From NCBI GenBank assembly GCA_035516965.1, contig DATIZR010000048.1:1-47735 (forward strand): a DNA stretch of 47,735 bases. Direction: 5' to 3'. This stretch comes from Nitrospirota bacterium (GTDB lineage: Bacteria > Nitrospirota > UBA9217). The notes under the pieces were generated by a model. It was not told the DNA's origin. It ran no database searches and saw nothing but the letters and a program-made list of their open reading frames with translations. The position numbers and the translations under genes are program-made. Shown here in pieces: positions 14,204 to 47,735 of this stretch (position 1 is the first letter of the stretch; every line of letters starts with the position of its first letter).

Positions 14204-15601
14204 ATGAAGAACGAACAACTGAGCGCGGCCCTCGAACACTTCGCAAAGAATAAATCGGAACATGTGAAGGACCTGATCGACCTTGTCCGCATTCCGAGCA
14301 TCAGTTTTCCCGGCTATGACCCCGCGCCGCTCGTCCAGGGCGCCGAAGCGGTTGCGCGGCTCCTCTCCAGGAACGGCCTCACTGACGTACGCGTTCTCCC
14401 CGCAGGAACAGGTCATCCCTCGGTGCTCGGCCAATGGACGGAACAGAAGGGCAAGGCCACGATCCTGCTGTACGCCCATTACGATGTCCAGCCGATCGGC
14501 CGGGAACCGCTCTGGAAGTCGGGCGCTTTTCTGCCCGAAGTGCGGAACGGCCGACTCTATGGCAGGGGCTCGTCGGATGACAAGGGAGGCGTGGTCATGC
14601 ATGCCGCGGCCATCGGCTCCTTTCTCCGGTCAACGCGCTCCCTGCCCCTGAATGTCAAGGTGCTTGTCGAAGGCGAGGAAGAGGTCGGCTCCACGAATCT
14701 CGAGATGCTGCTCAAAAAGCATGGTGATCTCCTTGCCGCGGACGTCGTGCTGATCGCGGACAGTGAGAATTTCGACAGCGGCGTGCCGTCGCTCACCGCC
14801 TCCCTGCGGGGCATTGTCACCGTGAACGTGGAGGTCCGCTCGCTGGAATCGAGCGTCCATTCAGGCACCTGGGGAGGTCCGCTTCCGGACCCCGTTCTCG
14901 CCCTCGCCAGGATGCTCGCAAGCCTCGTGGACGACGAGGGACGGCCGGCTATCCCGGGTCTGATGGACAGGGTACGCCCGCTCTCGAGCGCTGAGCAATC
15001 TGACCTCGCTGCGCTCCCCTTTGATGAACGCCTGTACCGGAAGCAATCGAGAATGCTCGATACTGCGAAGCTCGTCGGCGGAGCAGGAACCGTGTATGAG
15101 AAGATGTGGCATCGCCCGTCCATCACCGTCAACGTGATCGAAGCAAGCAGCAGGAAGCAGGCCTCGAACATCGTGAATGACAGCGTCTATGCCCGCATCG
15201 GCATCAGGACCGTCCCCGACATGGACCCCTCTGAAACGCTCGAGCAGTTGAAGGGCCATCTGCTCCACCACGCGCCCTGGGGGGTGCAGGTCAGCATCGA
15301 GCCTGAAACGCCTTCGCGCTGGTGGTACTCCGATACGAAGGGCGATGTATTCGAGGCCGCGCTCAACGCGCTGGAGCGGGGTTATGGCAGAAAGCCGGCC
15401 GTCGTGGGAGCGGGAGGGTCCATTCCCTTTGTGCAGACCATTACGGACGCCCTCGGGGGGGTGCCCGCGCTTCTCTTCGGCGTCGGTGACCCGTACAGTG
15501 CGGCTCATTCCGAGAATGAGAGCCTGCTGCTCTCGGACTGGGAAAAGGGCTGCATGAGCCTGATCCATCTCTTTTCCGGCCTGGCGGATCTCAAGCGCTG
15601 A
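14204..15601 (+). CDS. M20-family dipeptidase (zinc peptidase)
   Basis: A 465-residue cytosolic peptidase of the M20 family, closest in layout to dipeptidases of the PepV/carnosinase type. Metal ligands are visible as His-x-Asp in LLYAHYDVQP, Asp in GRGSSDDKGG, Glu-Glu in VEGEEEVGS, Asp in LIADSENF and His near the C-terminus in SAAHSENE. The lid/dimerisation domain lies between the second and last motifs. The start at 14204 follows GAGG 7-8 nt upstream; the open frame extends further 5' but without a better site. The plus-strand neighbour 54 nt downstream is a PilZ protein, probably only co-transcribed. Confidence 0.9.
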   Translation: MKNEQLSAALEHFAKNKSEHVKDLIDLVRIPSISFPGYDPAPLVQGAEAVARLLSRNGLTDVRVLPAGTGHPSVLGQWTEQKGKATILLYAHYDVQPIGREPLWKSGAFLPEVRNGRLYGRGSSDDKGGVVMHAAAIGSFLRSTRSLPLNVKVLVEGEEEVGSTNLEMLLKKHGDLLAADVVLIADSENFDSGVPSLTASLRGIVTVNVEVRSLESSVHSGTWGGPLPDPVLALARMLASLVDDEGRPAIPGLMDRVRPLSSAEQSDLAALPFDERLYRKQSRMLDTAKLVGGAGTVYEKMWHRPSITVNVIEASSRKQASNIVNDSVYARIGIRTVPDMDPSETLEQLKGHLLHHAPWGVQVSIEPETPSRWWYSDTKGDVFEAALNALERGYGRKPAVVGAGGSIPFVQTITDALGGVPALLFGVGDPYSAAHSENESLLLSDWEKGCMSLIHLFSGLADLKR

Positions 15602-15655
15602 TACCCGGCAGCCTTTTGCCGCGTGAACATTCATCGGTTGTGAGGAATTCCTGAA

Positions 15656-16378
15656 ATGTCCGAAAAAAAATCCGTCCTGATCATCTGCCGCACGCCGGCA
15701 GGCCAGATGTACCTCGGCGTCCTGCTGAAGCGCATCTGGTACTCGCCGATCCTCGCGAAAACCGCTGAAGAAGGCGTGCGCCTGGCGCAGAATACCCGCT
15801 TTTCGCTGATCATTTATGACGGAGACGTCACCGGCCTGGAGCAGCGGGCTTCGATCATGCTCTTGAGGAGCGATGCCGCGGTGAAGGATCTGCCGCTCGT
15901 CGTATTCCTGACGAGCGAGAACACACCGGCCGACGATTCGCTCCTGTCGCTCGGCTGCACGGCGGTCCTCACCAAGCCGCTCGACCTGTCCATCGTCTAC
16001 GGCGTCCTCGGCCGTCTGACCGGCGAACAGCGCCACGCGCCGCGCATCCCCGCAAAGTTCATCGTGGAGATCAGGGAGGGAACCCCTGAAGCGCGACTGA
16101 TGTGTGTCGACCTTTCCGAGGGCGGTCTCTATCTGCGGTCGCACGAAAGCCTGCCGGAAGGTGCGGTGATCCATGTCCGTTTCACCCTGCCCCGCGATAC
16201 CGTGGTCATGGAACTGACCGCCCGGGTCGCCCGGGTGATCCCTCTTGGAACGCAGATCGATGCCGAGCCGGGTATCGGTCTCGAATTCGTGGACGCTCCG
16301 GAAGATTCCAGGCTCAGGATCCGGAACTTCGTGCAATGGGAAATGACGGGGGATCTGGAGTGGAAGGCGGATATCTGA
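15656..16378 (+). CDS. Pseudo-receiver/PilZ domain protein, probable c-di-GMP effector
   Basis: A 240-residue protein with an N-terminal response-regulator-like domain (1-120) and a C-terminal PilZ domain (125-235). The receiver keeps a central Asp (Asp55 or Asp57 in IIYDGDVTG) and Lys107 in LTKPLD, but the N-terminal acidic pair that binds magnesium is replaced by CR in VLIICRTPAG, so phosphorylation is doubtful. The PilZ domain has both c-di-GMP motifs: RHAPR (126-130) and DLSEGG (152-157). It should therefore bind c-di-GMP, and could act on pili, motility or secretion; a pilus-like operon is encoded further along the window. Confidence 0.85.
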   Translation: MSEKKSVLIICRTPAGQMYLGVLLKRIWYSPILAKTAEEGVRLAQNTRFSLIIYDGDVTGLEQRASIMLLRSDAAVKDLPLVVFLTSENTPADDSLLSLGCTAVLTKPLDLSIVYGVLGRLTGEQRHAPRIPAKFIVEIREGTPEARLMCVDLSEGGLYLRSHESLPEGAVIHVRFTLPRDTVVMELTARVARVIPLGTQIDAEPGIGLEFVDAPEDSRLRIRNFVQWEMTGDLEWKADI

Positions 16379-16431
16379 GCTCCTCTCGTGATGTCCGGGA
16401 CATTGTCTGGCATTAAACCTGTCGATCCAAC

Positions 16432-23664: not shown

Positions 23665-25242
23665 TCAGAACTTCTCAAATTCCCTGTCCCGTTCATCCAT
23701 CGACCTGCCGTTTCCGGGATGCCCCAAATCGAACTTCACGCCTGAGAATATCGGCCCTCGCTTCACTGCGGGCGCCTCCCCGTGTACCGGCGGTGCTATT
23801 CTGACCCTGGACGCCGGGTCCTTCCGCATATCATCACCGGCCGTGGCCACCGTCGTTCTCCCCGCGTCTACCCTGAAGAAGGCGGTGGTCTGCAGAAGCT
23901 GGGCGGCCTGGGACGACAGTTCTTCGGCCATGGAGGCCATCTCCTCCGCCGATCCCGCGTTCTGCTGGATCACGTGATTGAGCTGCTGGATGGCGCTGTT
24001 GATCTGGTCCGCACCCGATGCCTGCTCCTTGCTCGACGCACTGATCTCCTGCACGAGCTCCGAGGTCTTCTGGATATCGGGAACGAGTTTGGAAAGCATG
24101 GATCCGGCTTTTTCCGCAACATCAACGCTGGACCGGGAAAGTCTGCTGATCTCAGCAGCCGCGATCTGGCTTCGTTCGGCAAGTTTGCGTACCTCCGCCG
24201 CGACCACGGCAAACCCCTTCCCATGCTCGCCCGCGCGGGCCGCCTCGATCGCCGCATTGAGGGCCAGCAGGTTCGTCTGCCGAGCGATCTCCTCGATGAT
24301 CGATATCTTTTCCGCAATATCCTTCATGGCAGCCACCGCTTCGGCCACGGCCTTTCCGCTCTCCTGTGCATCGTCAGCGCTTTTCAGTGCTATCTTTTCC
24401 GTCTGCATGGCATTATCGGCATTCTGCCTGATGGTTGCATTCATCTCTTCAACGGAGGACGAGGCCTCTTCTGCGGAGGCTGCCTGTTCCGTGCTTCCCT
24501 GCGACATCTGTTCAGAGCCCGCGTTGATCGTCTGGCTGCCGGATGCCACTCCCGCGGCCGCAGCCTTCACGTCTCCTACGACGGTCCTCAGCTTCTCAAC
24601 CATCGATCCGATCGAAGCGGACAGCATCCCGATCTCGTCGCCCGATTCAGCCTCCGGGGTTATCGTAAGGTCTCCCGACGAGACCTGATCGACAACGGCA
24701 TTCAGCCGGTCGATGGGTTTGACCGCGAGGATGCGGAAAAGCAGATAGATGATGGCCGAGACCGCGAGCATGGTCGCGAGGGACAGCGAGGTCAGGATCG
24801 TCTGCGATTGCCGCAGCGCCCGGTTGATATCCCGGGTCGAATAGCCGATCTTGACAAGACCGATCTTCTCGCTCTGCTGGAGTATGGGGCTGGTATATTC
24901 AAGAACGTCGGCGGTGTCCCTGTTCTCTTTTTTCTGGCGCGTGAGCTCTTTCCCCTCCTTGTCGAGAATGACCGCATAGATGATGTCGTCGTCTCCTTCG
25001 GAAACATACCGTACATGGTTCTCGAGAAAAGAGAGGTTGTAGCTCAGGATCGGTTCGGCAGAAATGGCTGCGAGGAACCTCGCCACATTCTCCCCCTTGT
25101 CCTTGAGGTCGGAAACGAGCACGTTCTTTTCATGTATGCTGATGATCGTTCCCATGGCCGTAAAGACCAGAAGAAGCGCCAGCAGAATGCTGACCAGAAA
25201 TTTTCTGGTTAACGTCCATTTTTTGAAATCGTTCCTGTCCAT
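23665..25242 (-). CDS. Methyl-accepting chemotaxis protein
   Basis: A 525-residue transmembrane chemoreceptor. TM1 is about residues 14-34 ([20 protein letters not shown]), a short periplasmic domain of roughly 130 residues follows, TM2 is [15 protein letters not shown], then HAMP and a cytoplasmic coiled coil. The conserved hairpin tip is present ([18 protein letters not shown], then [18 protein letters not shown]). The small periplasmic domain includes [13 protein letters not shown], as in single-Cache-like sensors. No C-terminal CheR/CheB tether pentapeptide is seen. GAGGAG upstream supports the ATG at 25242. It lies 89 nt after a PhnD-like periplasmic binding protein, a possible ligand-bearing partner. 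Confidence 0.93.
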
Positions 25243-25331
25243 GACTGCTCCTCTCCTGTTCGCCGGTCGTTGTTGTCCGGCTTCCGCGCTCGCGCCGGGC
25301 AATGCTCTCTTTCCTGCGAAGGGACGTCCGG

Positions 25332-26195
25332 CTACATGCTGCCGGATATCTTTGTCGCCTTCCGCAGGTCATCATATTCCTTGTCAGCAATGGGGATGAA
25401 CCCGGTGAGCCGGGCCGGGCCCAGGATGGCTTCATTATTCGGATCGTTCGGCTTCAGCTTGAGCAGGGCGGCTTTGATCTTCGTCGCCGTTTCTGCTTTC
25501 AGCTTCGGAGTGGCGAATAACGGCCAGTTCGGAACATAGTCGGTATACCCCACGATCCTGATCTGGGAAATATCGACCTTGTCCTTCACCTTTTCCAGTT
25601 CGTCCTCGCGGATCCCGCCGGCATCGGCGGTCCGGTCGAACACGGACTGAACGACCTTATCGTGCCTCTTGGCGAAGGGCAGGACAGTGATGTCCTTCTT
25701 CGTGTCGAAGCCGGCCTTGTTCAGGAGCAGAAGCTGGAACAGGTAGCCCGCGGGAGAATCCTTGTCCATGAAAACGAATTTCTTCCCCTTGAGGTCCGTG
25801 ATGCGCTCTATCCCGCTGTCCTTTCTCACGATGATGATCCCCCGGAGCCTGGTGCCGCTTTTCACCTCCGATGACAAGGCGAGTGGCTCGATATTCACCT
25901 TGTCTTTGATCTCGACGTAGAGCAGGGGGTTCGCGAAGCCGATGTCCATCTGGCCGTTTTTTGCCGCCTCCTTGAATGCCGGAAAGTCCTTCGGGACTAC
26001 AATGCTCACTTTTTCCCCGGTTTCTTTTGCCAGGTATTCGGCCAGCGGCGTATACATCCTATGCAATTCGGACGCGCTTAGACGAGGCACCGTCCCAAGC
26101 TTGATCTCGGCGGACGCGATCCCGGCCATGACCACAACAGCTCCCACGCTTAAAAGTACCGGTGTTACGACTACTTGCATCACCCAGTTCTTCAT
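25332..26195 (-). CDS. PhnD-like periplasmic oxyanion-binding protein
   Basis: A 287-residue periplasmic binding protein of the phosphate/phosphonate/phosphite (PhnD) class. A signal peptide ends near [11 protein letters not shown]. Family features are [23 protein letters not shown], the [10 protein letters not shown] segment, [16 protein letters not shown] (ligand-binding Ser/Gly loop) and [20 protein letters not shown] lies 5 nt before the ATG. No permease or ATPase gene follows; instead a chemoreceptor gene does, and a sulfotransferase precedes it by 85 nt. The ligand could be phosphonate, phosphite, sulfate-like or another oxyanion. A sensing rather than uptake role is inferred from context. 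Confidence 0.85.
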
Positions 26196-26280: not shown

Positions 26281-27357
26281 TCATGCTCTGTTCCCGCCTG
26301 AATGACCGGATTTTAGCAGCCTGTCCTCGGGCAGGGACAGCGCCACGTGCGGGAACGCCTTTCGTTCCCCTATCGATTTGATCAGCCCCGCCTGCAGGTC
26401 CCGCCGTATGAGGTCGGCCGGGTCGATCAGCTTCAGCACTTTTTCTTTCATCCCCGCATTTTCAGCATCGAACGATTTTATTTCCGCATTCGTGAACCGC
26501 ACCTGTTCTCCTCTGGGGATAAAGATGCGGTCATAACCCAGGGCGTCGAGAATATGGCCGGCCACGGCTTCGAATATCCTGATATCCTCTTCCCTGGCCT
26601 CCCGCAGGAATTTGCGATTGTTGTTCTGCATTACGGGGTTGACGACATTGCCCCAGAGTTCGCTGGAGGACGCCGCTCTCTTAGCTTCCTCGGTTCGATA
26701 ATAGTCCAGCATGGCATCGCGAAAGGGCAGGCCGAGATAATCACAGATGTCCTGAGCCGTTCTCTGCGGGTCTCCGGTCAGTTCTTCGTAGCTGATATCC
26801 AGAAACCTGCCCGGTTCCATCTCCTTCCGGATCTGCAGTGCCAGTTCCTGGGTGGCCGCCCATTCACGGGCAATATGGTAGAAGTGCTTCTCGCCGACGA
26901 CGGCCTTATGAAAGGAAACAGCGACATCCCGCCCGTCGCGGTACAAATAGATGTATTTGGGCTTGTGAAAATAGCTCTCTATCTGGGATACATACTTGAT
27001 GTTCGCCAGGCTCTTGCAGCACCAGGTCGCTGCTCCCTTGGCCTCGGCGCACTTGTCATAGACCGCACCGTGGAGCGCCACCGGGCTGCGTTCGCGGCAG
27101 TGACGGGCAATTGCGTCCCGGTCAAGTTTGACCCCCTCCCAGGGGACCGGGTTCAGTTCCACGAGCCGGCACACATCCTCTACGAGCTGGGCAAAGTTCG
27201 AGTCCTGGCTCAAGTCTCCATAAACGGACACAAGCGGCATGATCCGCTGCAGGATATGCGGCGGGTGCGGTGCGGCAATCTCCGGCAGCTGGTTCAGCAT
27301 CAAACGGAGCAGGTTCGAACCCGACCTCTGAGTTCCGATCATAAAAATGGGCATCAT
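26281..27357 (-). CDS. PAPS-dependent sulfotransferase family protein (copy 1)
   Basis: A 358-residue P-loop-like sulfotransferase. The 5'-phosphosulfate loop is FMIGTQRSGSNLL (residues 5-17), and the 3'-phosphate region is YIYLYRDGRDVAVSF (135-149) with the conserved Arg-Asp and Ser. The family moves a sulfuryl group from PAPS to an alcohol, amine or sugar; the acceptor is unknown. No signal peptide, so cytosolic. GGAGG precedes two consecutive ATG codons. It lies 69 nt after a CHR transporter gene. A second protein, about 70% identical by eye, is encoded at 45178-46200 in the same position relative to another CHR transporter. Confidence 0.88.
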   Translation of the reverse strand: MMPIFMIGTQRSGSNLLRLMLNQLPEIAAPHPPHILQRIMPLVSVYGDLSQDSNFAQLVEDVCRLVELNPVPWEGVKLDRDAIARHCRERSPVALHGAVYDKCAEAKGAATWCCKSLANIKYVSQIESYFHKPKYIYLYRDGRDVAVSFHKAVVGEKHFYHIAREWAATQELALQIRKEMEPGRFLDISYEELTGDPQRTAQDICDYLGLPFRDAMLDYYRTEEAKRAASSSELWGNVVNPVMQNNNRKFLREAREEDIRIFEAVAGHILDALGYDRIFIPRGEQVRFTNAEIKSFDAENAGMKEKVLKLIDPADLIRRDLQAGLIKSIGERKAFPHVALSLPEDRLLKSGHSGGNRA

Positions 27358-27426: not shown

Positions 27427-28659
27427 TTAATACAAGAGCAGACCCATGGCTCCCGCTGCGGGGATGATCCAGGCGGTCTCTACCTTAAAACGAAGGAGAG
27501 CGACGAGAGACAGACAGAAGATCAGGATCGTTACCCTGTTCATGGGCGCCGTGCGGGCTACCGTGACCGCTGCAGCCGCGATCATGCCGATGACGGCAGA
27601 CCGTATGCCGCGCAACGAGGCTTTGATCATATCCGAGCGCTTGACCCTGTCCATGAACCGGGTGCAGAGCAGCATGACAATGGCCGGGGGTGTGAAGATA
27701 CCAAGCGTTGCCGCAGCAGCGCCGCCCAGACCGGACACCTTGTATCCGATGAAGGCCGCACTGATCAAGATAGGGCCCGGCGTCACCTGCCCCATCGCGA
27801 TGGCATCAACGAACTCCTGGCGGGTTACCCATCCATAACCATCCACCACGATGCGCTGGATCAGGGGAATGAACACGTAACCGCCGCCGAAGAGCAGGAT
27901 GCTCATGGCTCCGAAGACTATCAGCAGCTTCGCGGCCGCGGGCAGAACCACAACAGAGGCGGCAGAGAGCGGGGCGGCCCATGCGTCTAACCGCGTACCC
28001 GCTCCGGGGTCGGTCGCTTTCGTTTTGTTGATCGGCCTACGGGCATCCCCTTGTCCCGCTCCTCCCCGGGGCAGGTGAAACAGCAGCCATCCCGTGAAAC
28101 CGCTTGTCACGATGATGCCGACCGTAATCAGGAAACCACCCACGCCGAGCAAAAGACCGGCTGCAGCCAGGGCAATGACCGACTCGGTCGTTCCCTTGAT
28201 CGCCTTTGTCGCCATGTTACCTGCTGTCACGAAAATAACGGCGGTAACGGCGGGGATAAAACCCTGGAACGCTTTGTTGACGGCCGGCATATGACCGAAC
28301 GTGAAATAAGCATAACTGAGGGCAAGGACAAGCAGAAATGCAGGAAGGATTACCGCCCCTGCGCTCACGAGTGCGCCGGTGGCTCCGCGAGCCCGGTAGC
28401 CCACATAGGCCACAACATTCACCGCAACAGGGCCGGGCAGGACCGAGGCCAGTGAAACGCCATCCAGCATATCCTCGTGGGTGATCATTTTTTTTCGCTC
28501 GACTGCATAGTTCTGCACTACGGATATGAGCGCCATGAATCCACCGAAAGCAGTAAGCCCGATCTTGATAAATGTGAAGAACAGTGAGCACAGCGATGCT
28601 TCACTGGTGCTGCCAGAGCAGACGCGAGTCATGACCTTGTTGTCACGAGGTTCATCCAA
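27427..28659 (-). CDS. CHR-family (chromate/sulfate) transporter, two-domain (copy 1)
   Basis: A 410-residue membrane protein with two homologous halves. The N-half has IKIGLTAFGGFMAL and SVLPGPVAVNVVAYVGYRARG, and the C-half LLFGGGYVFIPLIQ and QVTPGPILISAAFIGYKVSG; FGG and PGP are the CHR-family hallmarks. A charged linker (about residues 195-225) separates them. The family includes ChrA chromate pumps and SrpC-type proteins tied to sulfate limitation; chromate resistance should not be assumed here because the partner genes are a sulfotransferase and a PAPS-making enzyme. The N-half motif has one Gly fewer than copy 2. AGGA lies about 10 nt before the ATG. Confidence 0.88.
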   Translation of the reverse strand: MDEPRDNKVMTRVCSGSTSEASLCSLFFTFIKIGLTAFGGFMALISVVQNYAVERKKMITHEDMLDGVSLASVLPGPVAVNVVAYVGYRARGATGALVSAGAVILPAFLLVLALSYAYFTFGHMPAVNKAFQGFIPAVTAVIFVTAGNMATKAIKGTTESVIALAAAGLLLGVGGFLITVGIIVTSGFTGWLLFHLPRGGAGQGDARRPINKTKATDPGAGTRLDAWAAPLSAASVVVLPAAAKLLIVFGAMSILLFGGGYVFIPLIQRIVVDGYGWVTRQEFVDAIAMGQVTPGPILISAAFIGYKVSGLGGAAAATLGIFTPPAIVMLLCTRFMDRVKRSDMIKASLRGIRSAVIGMIAAAAVTVARTAPMNRVTILIFCLSLVALLRFKVETAWIIPAAGAMGLLLY

Positions 28660-29390: not shown

Positions 29391-31181
29391 ATGGCCAGGA
29401 TTGAGAAATCGCCGACAGTTCACTTGATCGCTCCCTACGGCGGCAGGCTCGTTGATCTACACGCTGCTGCCGAAGAACGACTTCGACTGATTCGCAAGGC
29501 AAAAGGATTGCCGTCAATCCAGATTTCATTCCGGTCAATGTGCGACCTCCATCTGCTCGCCATGGGAGCATTCTCCCCCCTGGACCGGTTCATGGGCGAG
29601 AAGGATTATCAGTCCGTAGTGCGTGAGATGAGGCTGTCCGACGGCAGGCTTTTCCCGATCCCCATCACCCTGCCTGTGGACACGATTCAGGGACTCGAGG
29701 AAGGCAAAGGACTGGTCCTCCGAAGCCCGACAAACGAAATGCTCGCCATCATGTCGCTTGAAGAGATTTTCTCCTGGGACAGGGAGGCGGAAAATCGCAT
29801 GGTGCTCGGCACTACGGATTCACGCCATCCGCTCGTATGCGAAATGCACCAATGGGGCCGCTACTGCCTTTCAGGCCCGCTCACGGTGATCAGCATGCCC
29901 CGATACGGCGACTTCCCCGATCACCGAAGAACGCCTGCGGAAGTGCGCGGCATGCTCGAAGCCATGGGCAGGGAGAACGTGATCGCTTACCAGCCCCGCC
30001 ATCCCATGCACCGCGCCCACGAGGTGCTGACGAAATCGGCCGCCGAGGAGGTAGACGGGTCTCTGCTGATCCATCCCGTGATCGGAGCAACCGGGAACAA
30101 TGACGCTGGACACTACGCCCGGGTGCGCTGCTACAAGGAATTGATCGAGAAATATTTCGATCGAGGGAAAACCCTGTTAAACCTGCTCCCCCTTGCGATT
30201 CGCATGGCGGGGCCGAGGGCCGGCATCTGGCACGGGATCATCAACAGGAATTACGGCGCCAATTACTTCATCATCGGCCGCGACCCCCACGGCCCGGGCA
30301 GAGACTCCGCCGGCCGGGACTTTTACATCTCGCGGCAGGTGCAGGATCTGTTCCATGCCCACGAGCACGAGATCGGGGTTGGCATGATCCCCCACAAGGA
30401 AATGGTCTATCTGCCCGAAGGGAACCATTACGTTTCATCGGACCGTGCCGTGAGCAGCCCGGCGCAGTTCATCCGGGTGTCGGCCACGAACGTCATCGAG
30501 GAATCCCTGTTCCAGGGAAAACGGCTGCCAGAATGGTTCACCTGTCCGGAAGTGGCGCAGATTCTTTTCGAGGCCTATCCTCCGAAAACGCGCCAGGGCT
30601 TCTGCGTCTGGCTGACGGGCCTGCCCAGCTCGGGAAAATCAACGATCGCTGAATGCCTCACCCCCCTGCTCATGGCTGCGGGCAGGAAGGTGACGATCCT
30701 TGACGGGGACGTGGTAAGAACCCATCTCACGAAGGGGCTGGGCTTCAGCAGGGAGGACCGGGTCACGAACATCCTCAGGGTGGGATTTGTTGCCTCCGAA
30801 GTGGTCCGCCATGAGGGCGTCGCCGTCTGCGCGCTGATCAGCCCCTATGCCTCTGCCAGGGACCAGGTGCGGTCGATGGTAGGAACCGGGCGCTTCATCG
30901 AGGTCTTCGTGGACACGCCCGTGGACGTGTGCGCCGTGCGGGACGTGAAAGGCATGTACGCCATGGCGAGACAGGGCAGGATAACGGGCTTCACCGGTGT
31001 CGATGACGATTATGAACCACCGCGCTCGCCGGAGCTCTGCATCGATACCGTTTCGTCGACGCCCGTGGAGGGCGCGCAGCGGATCATGCATGAGCTGACT
31101 CATATGGGATTTCTTGCCGATGACGAGGGGAACAAACACCGCACGGGCCGGAAGGGCGCTTCCCACGAGTTGAAGGCGTAA
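29391..31181 (+). CDS. Bifunctional ATP sulfurylase/APS kinase
   Basis: A 596-residue fusion that makes PAPS from sulfate and two ATP. The sulfurylase part (1-395) has the nucleotide motif QPRHPMHRAHE (201-211), LLNLLPLAIRMAGPR and GRDPHGPGR (296-304). The third residue after Gln-x-Arg is His where most sulfurylases have Asn. The APS kinase part (from about 403) has Walker A GLPSSGKST (410-418), LDGDVVRTHLTKGLGFS, ISPYASARDQVR and GFTGVDDDYEPP, all intact. AGGAGG lies 7 nt before the ATG. It is divergent from the CHR transporter-sulfotransferase pair and supplies that enzyme's cosubstrate; fusions of this order are known, for example in Aquifex. The kinase domain suggests PAPS synthesis rather than dissimilatory sulfur oxidation. 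Confidence 0.93.
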   Translation: MARIEKSPTVHLIAPYGGRLVDLHAAAEERLRLIRKAKGLPSIQISFRSMCDLHLLAMGAFSPLDRFMGEKDYQSVVREMRLSDGRLFPIPITLPVDTIQGLEEGKGLVLRSPTNEMLAIMSLEEIFSWDREAENRMVLGTTDSRHPLVCEMHQWGRYCLSGPLTVISMPRYGDFPDHRRTPAEVRGMLEAMGRENVIAYQPRHPMHRAHEVLTKSAAEEVDGSLLIHPVIGATGNNDAGHYARVRCYKELIEKYFDRGKTLLNLLPLAIRMAGPRAGIWHGIINRNYGANYFIIGRDPHGPGRDSAGRDFYISRQVQDLFHAHEHEIGVGMIPHKEMVYLPEGNHYVSSDRAVSSPAQFIRVSATNVIEESLFQGKRLPEWFTCPEVAQILFEAYPPKTRQGFCVWLTGLPSSGKSTIAECLTPLLMAAGRKVTILDGDVVRTHLTKGLGFSREDRVTNILRVGFVASEVVRHEGVAVCALISPYASARDQVRSMVGTGRFIEVFVDTPVDVCAVRDVKGMYAMARQGRITGFTGVDDDYEPPRSPELCIDTVSSTPVEGAQRIMHELTHMGFLADDEGNKHRTGRKGASHELKA

Positions 31182-45177: not shown

Positions 45178-46200
45178 CTATTCTCTCGTGAGAGAGGCAG
45201 CGTGGCGGGTCTTGATTTCTCTCAGGAGGCCTGCCTGAAGGTCCCGGCGCAGGAGGTCGGCCGGGTCCACGCCTTTTCGGGAGTCCTCCTTCAGACGGTT
45301 GTTCTCTTCGTCGAATGCCGCAAGGTCATAGCCCGTGAACATCATCTCTTTATCTTCCCGCACATAGGTCCGTTCATATCCCAGCGCGTCGAGTACGCGG
45401 CCTGCGACCGACTCGAAGATGCGTATGTCCCGTTCGCTGGCTTCCCGGAGGAACTTCCGGCTGTTGTTGCTCAGGACCGGCTTTGTCACATTGCTCCACA
45501 GGTCGCTCGAGGAAGCTGCGCGTTTCGCTTCGTCGGTGCCGTGGTAGTCGAGCATGGACTCGCGGTAGGGTACGCCCAGGAATGCGCAGATCCTCCGTGC
45601 GGTCGCCCCGGGGTTTCCACTCAGCTCCTCGTAGCTCACGCCGAGGAAGCGGGCAGGATCGATGGTGCGCTGGTACTTTAATGCCAGATCCTGGGTCGCT
45701 GCCCATTCTTTTGCAATATGGTAAAAGTGTTTCTCTCCAACTACGGCCTTCCGGAACGAGAGGGCCACGTCGCGGCCGTCGCGGTATAGGTAGATGTAAC
45801 GGGGATCGCGGAAGTATGCCTCTATCTGGGGCACATAATGGATGTTCGCAAGGCTCTTGCAGCACCAGGTCGCTGCTCCTTTGGCTTCGGCGCAGACGTC
45901 GTATACGGCGCCATGGATCGCCACAAGGCTGTGCTCCCGGCACCGCCCGGCGACATCACTCCTGTCCAGCCGGACCCCTTCCCACGCCACGGGGTTGAGC
46001 TCCACCAGGCGGCAGACGTCCTCCACGAGCTGCATGAAATCATCACGCCGGGAGAGGTCTCCGTAGCTTGCGACAAGCGGCATCATGCGCTGCAGGATAT
46101 GCGGCGGATGGGGCGCCGCAATCTCCGGGAGCTGGTTCAGCATGAGTCGCAGCAGGTTCGAGCCGGACCGTTGGGTGCCTATCATGAATATGGGTCTCAT
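45178..46200 (-). CDS. PAPS-dependent sulfotransferase family protein (copy 2)
   Basis: A 340-residue sulfotransferase closely related to copy 1 along its whole length. The 5'-phosphosulfate loop FMIGTQRSGSNLL and the 3'-phosphate region YIYLYRDGRDVALSF are both intact, as are long shared blocks such as EIAAPHPPHILQR and ATWCCKSLANI. AGGAGG supports the ATG at 46200. The 135-nt gap to the CHR transporter gene upstream holds a small hairpin (ACACAC-AGAA-GTGTGT, 46234-46249). The gene is convergent with phoR. Acceptor unknown. Confidence 0.88.
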   Translation of the reverse strand: MRPIFMIGTQRSGSNLLRLMLNQLPEIAAPHPPHILQRMMPLVASYGDLSRRDDFMQLVEDVCRLVELNPVAWEGVRLDRSDVAGRCREHSLVAIHGAVYDVCAEAKGAATWCCKSLANIHYVPQIEAYFRDPRYIYLYRDGRDVALSFRKAVVGEKHFYHIAKEWAATQDLALKYQRTIDPARFLGVSYEELSGNPGATARRICAFLGVPYRESMLDYHGTDEAKRAASSSDLWSNVTKPVLSNNSRKFLREASERDIRIFESVAGRVLDALGYERTYVREDKEMMFTGYDLAAFDEENNRLKEDSRKGVDPADLLRRDLQAGLLREIKTRHAASLTRE

Positions 46201-46335
46201 GGCGATATCCTCCTGAATTGGTCGTTGTACATGACACACAGAAGTGTGTTCACATGCTTCTGCATATTGCCAGGAACACTGGCCGCTCGTTGACCGGGCT
46301 CCGTGCTCCCTCGCTCCCGTGGCGAATCCCAGGCG

Positions 46336-47580
46336 TCAATACAGCAGCAGTCCGGCGATCCCCGCAGCAGGGATGATCCAAACGACCTCCACCTTGAAGC
46401 GGAGCAGAGCGGCCAGCACCGCTGCAAAGATCACGAGCGACACCCAATTGTGCTGGGACGTCCGCCCGACGACGACGGCGGCCGCAGCGATCATGCCGAT
46501 GACCGCCGGCCGGATGCCCCGGAGACACGCCTTGATGGTATCCGATTTTTTGATCCGTTCGAAAAACCCGGTGCAGATTACCATCACGATCGCCGGCGGA
46601 GTAAAGATGCCGGCCGTTGCCGCCGCGGCTCCCGAGATCCCGGCCACCTTGTAGCCTATGAAGGCGGCACTGATCAGGATGGGCCCAGGCATTACCTGCC
46701 CGAGGGCGATACCATCGATGAACTCTTGGCGAGTGACCCACCCGTACCCGTCGACCACGGACTGCTGGATCAGGGGGATGAACACATACCCGCCGCCGAA
46801 AAGCAGCACGCTCATGCCGGCAAAGGTGATGAAAAGCTTGGCCGCGAGCGTCATGTTCAGGCCCAGCAACGGCGCTGCGCCCGCCCAAATCGCCGGGAGC
46901 GGCTTCGCCGCGGGAGGACCTTGTGCATCGCCGTCGTTCCTCCCGCCGCTGGCTCCTGCTTTCCGGACGCTGGCCGGATTCTCCGGGAAAGAGGCTGATG
47001 ACGAAGCGGGGCGGAACAGGAACCATCCGGCAATCCCTCCGCCCGCAATGATAGACACCGTGATAAAGAAACCACCGACGCCGAGCAGAAGAAGGAAAGC
47101 CGCAAGCGCAATGACGACTTCGGCAGCGCCCTTGATGGTCTTGGTGCTCATGTTCCATGCAGCGGTCGCGATGATAGCGGCGATCGCGGGCAGGAAGCCC
47201 TTGAAGAGTTTACCCACGACCGGCATCTGACCATAGTTGAAATAGGCATAGCTCAGGCCGACCATAAGCAGAAACGACGGAAGGACCACGCCGAGGACGC
47301 TTGCGAGCGCGCCGCGCCAGCCTCGCACCTTGTGACCCACGAAGGCCACGACGTTCACCGCGACCGGCCCGGGCAGGATGGTAGCAAGCGAAATGCCGTC
47401 GAGCATGTCCTCCTGCTTGAGCCACTGCCTGCGTTCCACGGCGTAGTTCTGCACGACCGAAATGAGCGCCATGAAACCGCCGCCGAAAGCCGTACTTCCG
47501 ATCTTCAGGAATGTCAGGAACAGTTCCCCGATCGATACTTTCCGGTCGGGGGTTGAAATAGTCACCGCTAATGTCTCCAT
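46336..47580 (-). CDS. CHR-family (chromate/sulfate) transporter, two-domain (copy 2)
   Basis: A 414-residue paralogue of the protein at 27427-28659. The N-half has IGSTAFGGGFMAL and ATILPGPVAVNVVAFVGHKVRG and the C-half LLFGGGYVFIPLIQ and QVMPGPILISAAFIGYKVAG. The hydrophilic linker in the middle differs most from copy 1. AGGGGA lies about 8 nt before the ATG. It starts 15 nt after the stop of the partial gene at the window edge, so the two are probably one operon with the sulfotransferase downstream. Confidence 0.9.
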   Translation of the reverse strand: METLAVTISTPDRKVSIGELFLTFLKIGSTAFGGGFMALISVVQNYAVERRQWLKQEDMLDGISLATILPGPVAVNVVAFVGHKVRGWRGALASVLGVVLPSFLLMVGLSYAYFNYGQMPVVGKLFKGFLPAIAAIIATAAWNMSTKTIKGAAEVVIALAAFLLLLGVGGFFITVSIIAGGGIAGWFLFRPASSSASFPENPASVRKAGASGGRNDGDAQGPPAAKPLPAIWAGAAPLLGLNMTLAAKLFITFAGMSVLLFGGGYVFIPLIQQSVVDGYGWVTRQEFIDGIALGQVMPGPILISAAFIGYKVAGISGAAAATAGIFTPPAIVMVICTGFFERIKKSDTIKACLRGIRPAVIGMIAAAAVVVGRTSQHNWVSLVIFAAVLAALLRFKVEVVWIIPAAGIAGLLLY

Positions 47581-47595
47581 GGTCGTATCCCCTAG

Positions 47596-47735
47596 TTATT
47601 GATGGGCCGGGAGCCGGTAGCCCAGAGATTCCCCGATGACCGCCCCGCTGACCGGTGATTCCCGCTCTACGAATCCCTGCTCTTCCAGGAATGCGATGAT
47701 CGCGCGGGCGCTCGCTTCGGGGGAGTCACTCGTGG
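47596..47735 (-). CDS. C-terminal fragment of a gene, probable APS kinase (partial)
   Basis: The window cuts this minus-strand frame; only 45 codons before the TAA (47598-47596) are present. They read TSDSPEASARAIIAFLEEQG and then continue about 25 more residues to LPAHQ. The first part matches the last helix of adenylyl-sulfate kinases, which end in a pattern like T-x-x-SPE-x-A-x-x-I-x-x-LE-x-x-G. An ATP sulfurylase/APS kinase fusion would also end so. The tail beyond this helix is unusual. Fifteen nt separate it from the CHR transporter gene. The identification rests on a short stretch, so it is a suggestion. Confidence 0.4.
   Translation of the reverse strand, partial: TSDSPEASARAIIAFLEEQGFVERESPVSGAVIGESLGYRLPAHQ

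Follow-up and report, generated by a model that had tools for sequence, protein, structure and literature searches.

The right edge of this contig raises the question of which gene ends there, just ahead of a CHR transporter gene, and which pathway such neighbours might serve. The window, meaning the whole stretch of 47,735 nucleotides that was analysed, is one entire contig (C48) from a draft genome of 3.8 Mb that is 97.7% complete. At its right edge the minus strand encodes TSDSPEASARAIIAFLEEQG, in a frame that runs from 47733 down to a TAA at 47598-47596, and the peptide of this frame, TSDSPEASARAIIAFLEEQGFVERESPVSGAVIGESLGYRLPAHQ, has 45 residues mapping to C48:47599-47733. A gap of 15 nt separates the stop from the ATG (47580) of the transporter gene, chrA copy 2. 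Both the position of the frame (47596-47735) and this spacing had been given correctly in a preliminary description of this DNA, which took the fragment for the end of an APS kinase.

The last 141 bases of C48 are found again, with 100% identity, at the end of another contig, C97, and occur nowhere else in the genome. On C97 the frame stays open for 597 codons (14594-16387, locus L004). This recurrence, the length of the open frame and the family scores of its product argue that the edge frame did not arise by chance, and positions 47596-47735 of the minus strand thus hold the 3' end, 45 codons and the TAA, of the second copy of a fusion gene for an ATP-sulfurylase-like/APS kinase protein. As the link between the two contigs consists of a 141-base overlap of the kind typical of assembly-graph neighbours, they could in principle have been wrongly linked, in which case chrA copy 2 would not be preceded by the fusion gene in the genome. 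Such an error is exceedingly improbable, because the sequence is common to just these two contig ends, the reading frame runs unbroken across the overlap and four related genomes show a matching order within single contigs. Thus, cysQ, the fusion gene (sat/cysC, or satC), chrA and a sulfotransferase gene lie on one contig in G007, satC-chrA-sulfotransferase in G005 and G011, and satC-chrA in G013. Conservation of this order in members of the same Nitrospirota family validates the join.

A Pfam search of the complete copy-2 product revealed PUA_2, ATP-sulfurylase and APS_kinase domains. The identification of the fragment as an APS kinase end was borne out by the score of the APS_kinase domain (PF01583, 205.1 bits against a cut-off of 21.1), by TIGR00455 (204.4 against 138.7) and by the match to PRK05537, the bifunctional SAT/APS kinase family (691.4 bits against 669). 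A Walker A motif and a GFTGIDD-like motif, which had been expected beyond 47735, are indeed present as GLPSSGKST and GFTGVDD, and together with LLDGDVVR they make the kinase motifs intact. The C-terminal domain is hence predicted to be an APS kinase, converting APS to PAPS.

The gene order of copy 2 is cysQ - sat/cysC - chrA - sulfotransferase, with all four genes co-directional. cysQ (C97 13815-14624) lies upstream of the fusion gene, with an overlap of 31 nt, and its product is the only one in the genome to exceed the cut-off of TIGR01331 (286.1 bits against 228.8). chrA copy 2 (46336-47580, minus strand) encodes a CHR transporter of 414 amino acids (PF02417, 299.3 bits; TIGR00937, 257.8 against 171.7), in which PF02417 matches two stretches, giving the two Chromate_transp domains found in the long-chain CHR superfamily. 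The sulfotransferase gene follows at 45178-46200 on the minus strand (PF13469, 115.5 bits), with its start placed at ATG 46200, an upstream GTG at 46239 being possible as well. Its product contains the 5'-PSB motif GTQRSGSNLLR and the 3'-PB motif YRDGRDVALSF, and the PAPS-binding motifs RSGSNLLR and RDGRDVA.SF are invariant across 11 aligned sulfotransferases. By fold search with a model of pLDDT 70, the nearest solved structures, those of tyrosylprotein and of olefin-synthase/curacin sulfotransferases, share about 20% identity with it, too little to name the acceptor. Scans for promoters and terminators gave nothing convincing. The earlier proposal of an operon comprising an APS kinase, a CHR transporter and a sulfotransferase therefore holds as to the tight, co-directional arrangement of the kinase gene with chrA and the sulfotransferase gene, but the kinase is part of an ATP-sulfurylase-like fusion rather than a stand-alone enzyme, and the operon begins one gene earlier, with cysQ.

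The window contains another such set of genes. The copy-1 fusion gene (29391-31181, plus strand, 596 amino acids; PRK05537, 754.7 bits) is divergent from chrA copy 1 (27427-28659, minus strand, assigned by profile searches, with an uncertain start codon), and sulfotransferase copy 1 (26281-27357, minus strand) is about 70% identical to copy 2. Copy 2, with all its genes in one direction, is therefore the tighter arrangement, as had been supposed, while the edge gene adds a second PAPS enzyme of the kind already encoded by copy 1 rather than a new kind. A recent duplication within the genome is not favoured, as copy 1 groups with G007 in the trees and copy 2 does not, which would make the two fusion copies old paralogues or separate acquisitions.

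The N-terminal half of the fusion departs from known ATP sulfurylases at its active site. Its closest solved relative, the Aquifex aeolicus SAT/APS kinase 2gks, has the same domain order and length, is the sister group of the window's fusion clade in the tree (100/97) and is 66-72% identical in the kinase half. However, 2gks retains QTRN, GRDHASPG and SGTEIR, which members of the window's clade do not. In the alignment, QTRNPMHRVHE of 2gks corresponds to QPRH[PL]MHRAHE in the clade, the Asn of QxRN being replaced by His in all members whose N-domain was read, GRDHA is changed to GRDPH (GSDPH in copy 2), and the Arg of SGTEIR to Ile or Val. Against the canonical QxRN...HxxH and GRDHA, copy 2 reads QPRHLMHRAH and GSDPH, and copy 1 reads QPRHPMHRAH and GRDPH; both window fusions thus lack canonical QxRN and GRDHA and keep HxxH. 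The more divergent fusions of G006 and G040 have GRDR instead of GRDPH. As far as the sequence goes, the window's fusions thus combine a degenerate sulfurylase site with intact kinase motifs, as does the Thiobacillus denitrificans type of two-domain APS kinase. Enzymes of this architecture whose sulfurylase-like domain is inactive have been described from T. denitrificans and Entamoeba (PMC13213808). By analogy, the N-terminal domain is likely to be catalytically dead or weak, with a structural or regulatory role. Some residual sulfurylase activity is possible, since the Gln, the Arg and both His of QxRxxxHxxH are kept and the domain is still conserved, with 59-72% identity to copy 1 within the clade.

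The T. denitrificans protein Tbd_0210 (PDB 3cr8) resembles the window's fusion in joining a degenerate sulfurylase domain to a kinase domain, which is active in Tbd_0210, and ATP sulfurylase activity was reported to be absent from it (Gay et al. 2009, as cited in PMC13213808). It differs in the residues that were lost (QARQ, HxxQ) and belongs to another, strongly supported clade. This clade, which also includes Gammaproteobacterial fusions with QPRH, is separate from that of the window whether the tree is built from the full-length protein (support 100/100), the N-domain or the kinase, so the altered site has at least two origins. The full-length and per-domain trees also exclude a shared origin of QPRH with the Gammaproteobacterial fusions, among which L064, L065 and L066 carry QPRHLMHRxH in the other clade, as would be expected of a parallel change at the sulfurylase site. 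Most outgroup fusions keep the canonical sulfurylase residues, and those of Acidimicrobiia and Chloroflexi, 51-56% identical, have canonical motifs, and the 6 kb inspected around them contain no CHR homologue. Separately, a fusion on plasmid p1 of Desulfolutivibrio sulfodismutans (L143 6953-8677) is a two-domain APS kinase with the very degenerate site QEATPLHRMHR, possibly a further case of decay in a sulfur-respiring organism.

If the sulfurylase half is impaired, APS would have to come from elsewhere. Contig C90 encodes a canonical single-domain Sat (QTRNPMHRSH, GRDHAGVG), adjoining aprBA and qmo-like genes, the aprBA and qmo names being assigned by reading the sequences rather than by family search. 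Among genomes with altered fusions, 12 of 15 contain a second ATP sulfurylase (none was detected in G011, G400 and G403), as compared to 0 of 6 genomes in which the fusion is canonical or nearly so (Fisher p 0.0015, uncorrected for the relatedness of the genomes). All second ATP sulfurylases checked have QxRN and GRDHAG motifs, and nine of them adjoin homologues of the C90 aprB and aprA. An exception to this pattern is a Nitrospiraceae UBA2166 fusion (L061 6001-7728), which is partly altered (QTRHPLYRVHE, GQDYASP) and is nevertheless the sole ATP sulfurylase found in its genome. These observations bear on whether the fusion might be a normal bifunctional PAPS synthetase, with both domains active and producing PAPS from sulfate without the dissimilatory Sat, as in A. 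aeolicus. Passing the cut-offs of PRK05537 and of TIGR00339 (ATP sulfurylase domain) would fit this explanation, as would the kinship to 2gks and the retained Gln, Arg and HxxH, yet it has to contend with the replacement of Asn by His in QxRN, of GRDHA by GRDPH or GSDPH and with the loss of the Arg of SGTxxR, at positions that most outgroups keep, as well as with the canonical Sat that almost every genome with an altered fusion possesses, and it is therefore considered unlikely.

A two-domain APS kinase that depends on APS made by another enzyme is thus the preferred reading, and its PAPS probably serves sulfation, since a search of this draft genome (97.7% complete) for the PAPS reductase family found no member, while all 14 control genomes were positive. 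The pathway would begin with the canonical dissimilatory Sat beside aprBA, which would supply APS for conversion to PAPS by the two-domain APS kinase. The sulfotransferase would use PAPS to sulfate an acceptor, CysQ would dispose of the PAP that is formed, and the CHR protein would move an oxyanion linked to the pathway, either sulfate inward or the sulfated product outward. We estimate a probability of roughly 70% that the edge frame encodes the C-terminal end of such a two-domain APS kinase, whose gene follows cysQ in a four-gene sulfation operon with this pathway.

The association of chrA with sulfotransferase genes extends well beyond the window. When loci were defined by full-length sulfotransferases sharing 50% identity or more with copy 1, chrA adjoins the sulfotransferase gene, in either order, in 11/11 loci from 10 genomes of three Nitrospirota families. 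Conversely, of the chrA genes at least 50% identical to chrA copy 2, 11/12 adjoin that sulfotransferase gene, and the exception, in G013, is located at a contig end. The module CHR proteins differ from other CHR proteins in forming a subclade of their own, with at most 37% identity to the next-best ones of Nitrospirota, and in having a sulfotransferase partner wherever the contig extends far enough. Outside Nitrospirota, two conjugative plasmids, of Serratia sp. JSRIV004 and JSRIV002, carry satC-tauE-ST-cysQ-chrA in a row (ST, sulfotransferase; L142 6997-13038), with transposase genes on both sides. This module shares sat/cysC, the sulfotransferase (54%), cysQ (46%) and chrA (51%) with that of the window, but differs in its gene order, its plasmid location, an additional TauE/SafE exporter gene and a canonical sulfurylase site in sat/cysC. 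Searches for the module on phages found none, and in E. coli cysQ only was found. A Synechocystis paper naming both chrA and a sulfotransferase lists genes that are unlinked there. Each protein of the module belongs to a known family, and no published account of their combination with CHR was found in the open-access literature.

Such a transporter might also suggest that the module acts chiefly in oxyanion tolerance, with CHR exporting chromate or a comparable anion, while the genes for PAPS synthesis and the sulfotransferase would help to replace the sulfur lost along with it. The transporter scores above the cut-off of TIGR00937, a model for chromate efflux, the module also occurs on a plasmid among transposons, and chromate/sulfate antiport was proposed as the activity of CHR proteins (Nies 1998, as cited in PMC8940164). 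On the other hand, neither chrB, a chromate reductase nor any other resistance gene was seen beside the module, chromate efflux offers no obvious place for a sulfotransferase and CysQ, and CHR and sulfotransferase genes remain neighbours even in genomes whose PAPS genes lie apart from them, which makes a tolerance function quite improbable.

With sulfation retained as the preferred function, a wider proposal, held tentatively and at less than even odds, is that the module is a partly mobile, undescribed one pairing a dedicated CHR transporter with a PAPS sulfotransferase, and that in sulfur-respiring lineages PAPS synthetases that were once bifunctional repeatedly became APS kinases fed by the dissimilatory Sat/AprBA pathway. 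If true, this would give CHR proteins a role beyond chromate efflux. Few CHR transporters have a known physiological substrate, and the recurrence of CHR with a sulfotransferase, CysQ and APS kinase, both in Nitrospirota and on a plasmid of Serratia, points to sulfation. The findings also suggest a link of sulfate respiration to sulfation, in which the dissimilatory Sat provides spare APS and the sulfurylase half decays. Because such decay arose on two or more occasions through similar residue changes, this idea is open to enzyme assay.

The surroundings of copy 1 may hint at sensing. Directly after sulfotransferase copy 1 lies a gene for a PhnD-like periplasmic anion-binding protein (25332-26195, minus strand; PF12974, 223 bits), followed by one for a methyl-accepting chemotaxis protein (23665-25302, minus strand). 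A chemotaxis receptor gene also adjoins the module in G006, G007, G008 and G011. PhnD-like domains, either free-standing or joined to a histidine kinase, are encoded within a few genes of it in 6/10 Nitrospirota module genomes (outside the source genome, in G004, G006, G007, G153 and G253), and the source genome has just six PhnD-like proteins above the family cut-off. Since PhnD-like sensor domains were reported for tetrathionate and thiosulfate (PMC5408782), it is a reasonable guess, by analogy, that the protein beside the module senses a sulfur oxyanion. Elsewhere in the genome, an island on C93 (60961-69998; L050 8962-17999) contains a single-domain APS kinase gene with several sulfotransferase- and glycosyltransferase-like genes, possibly a second sulfation locus, which may lie in a flagellar region.
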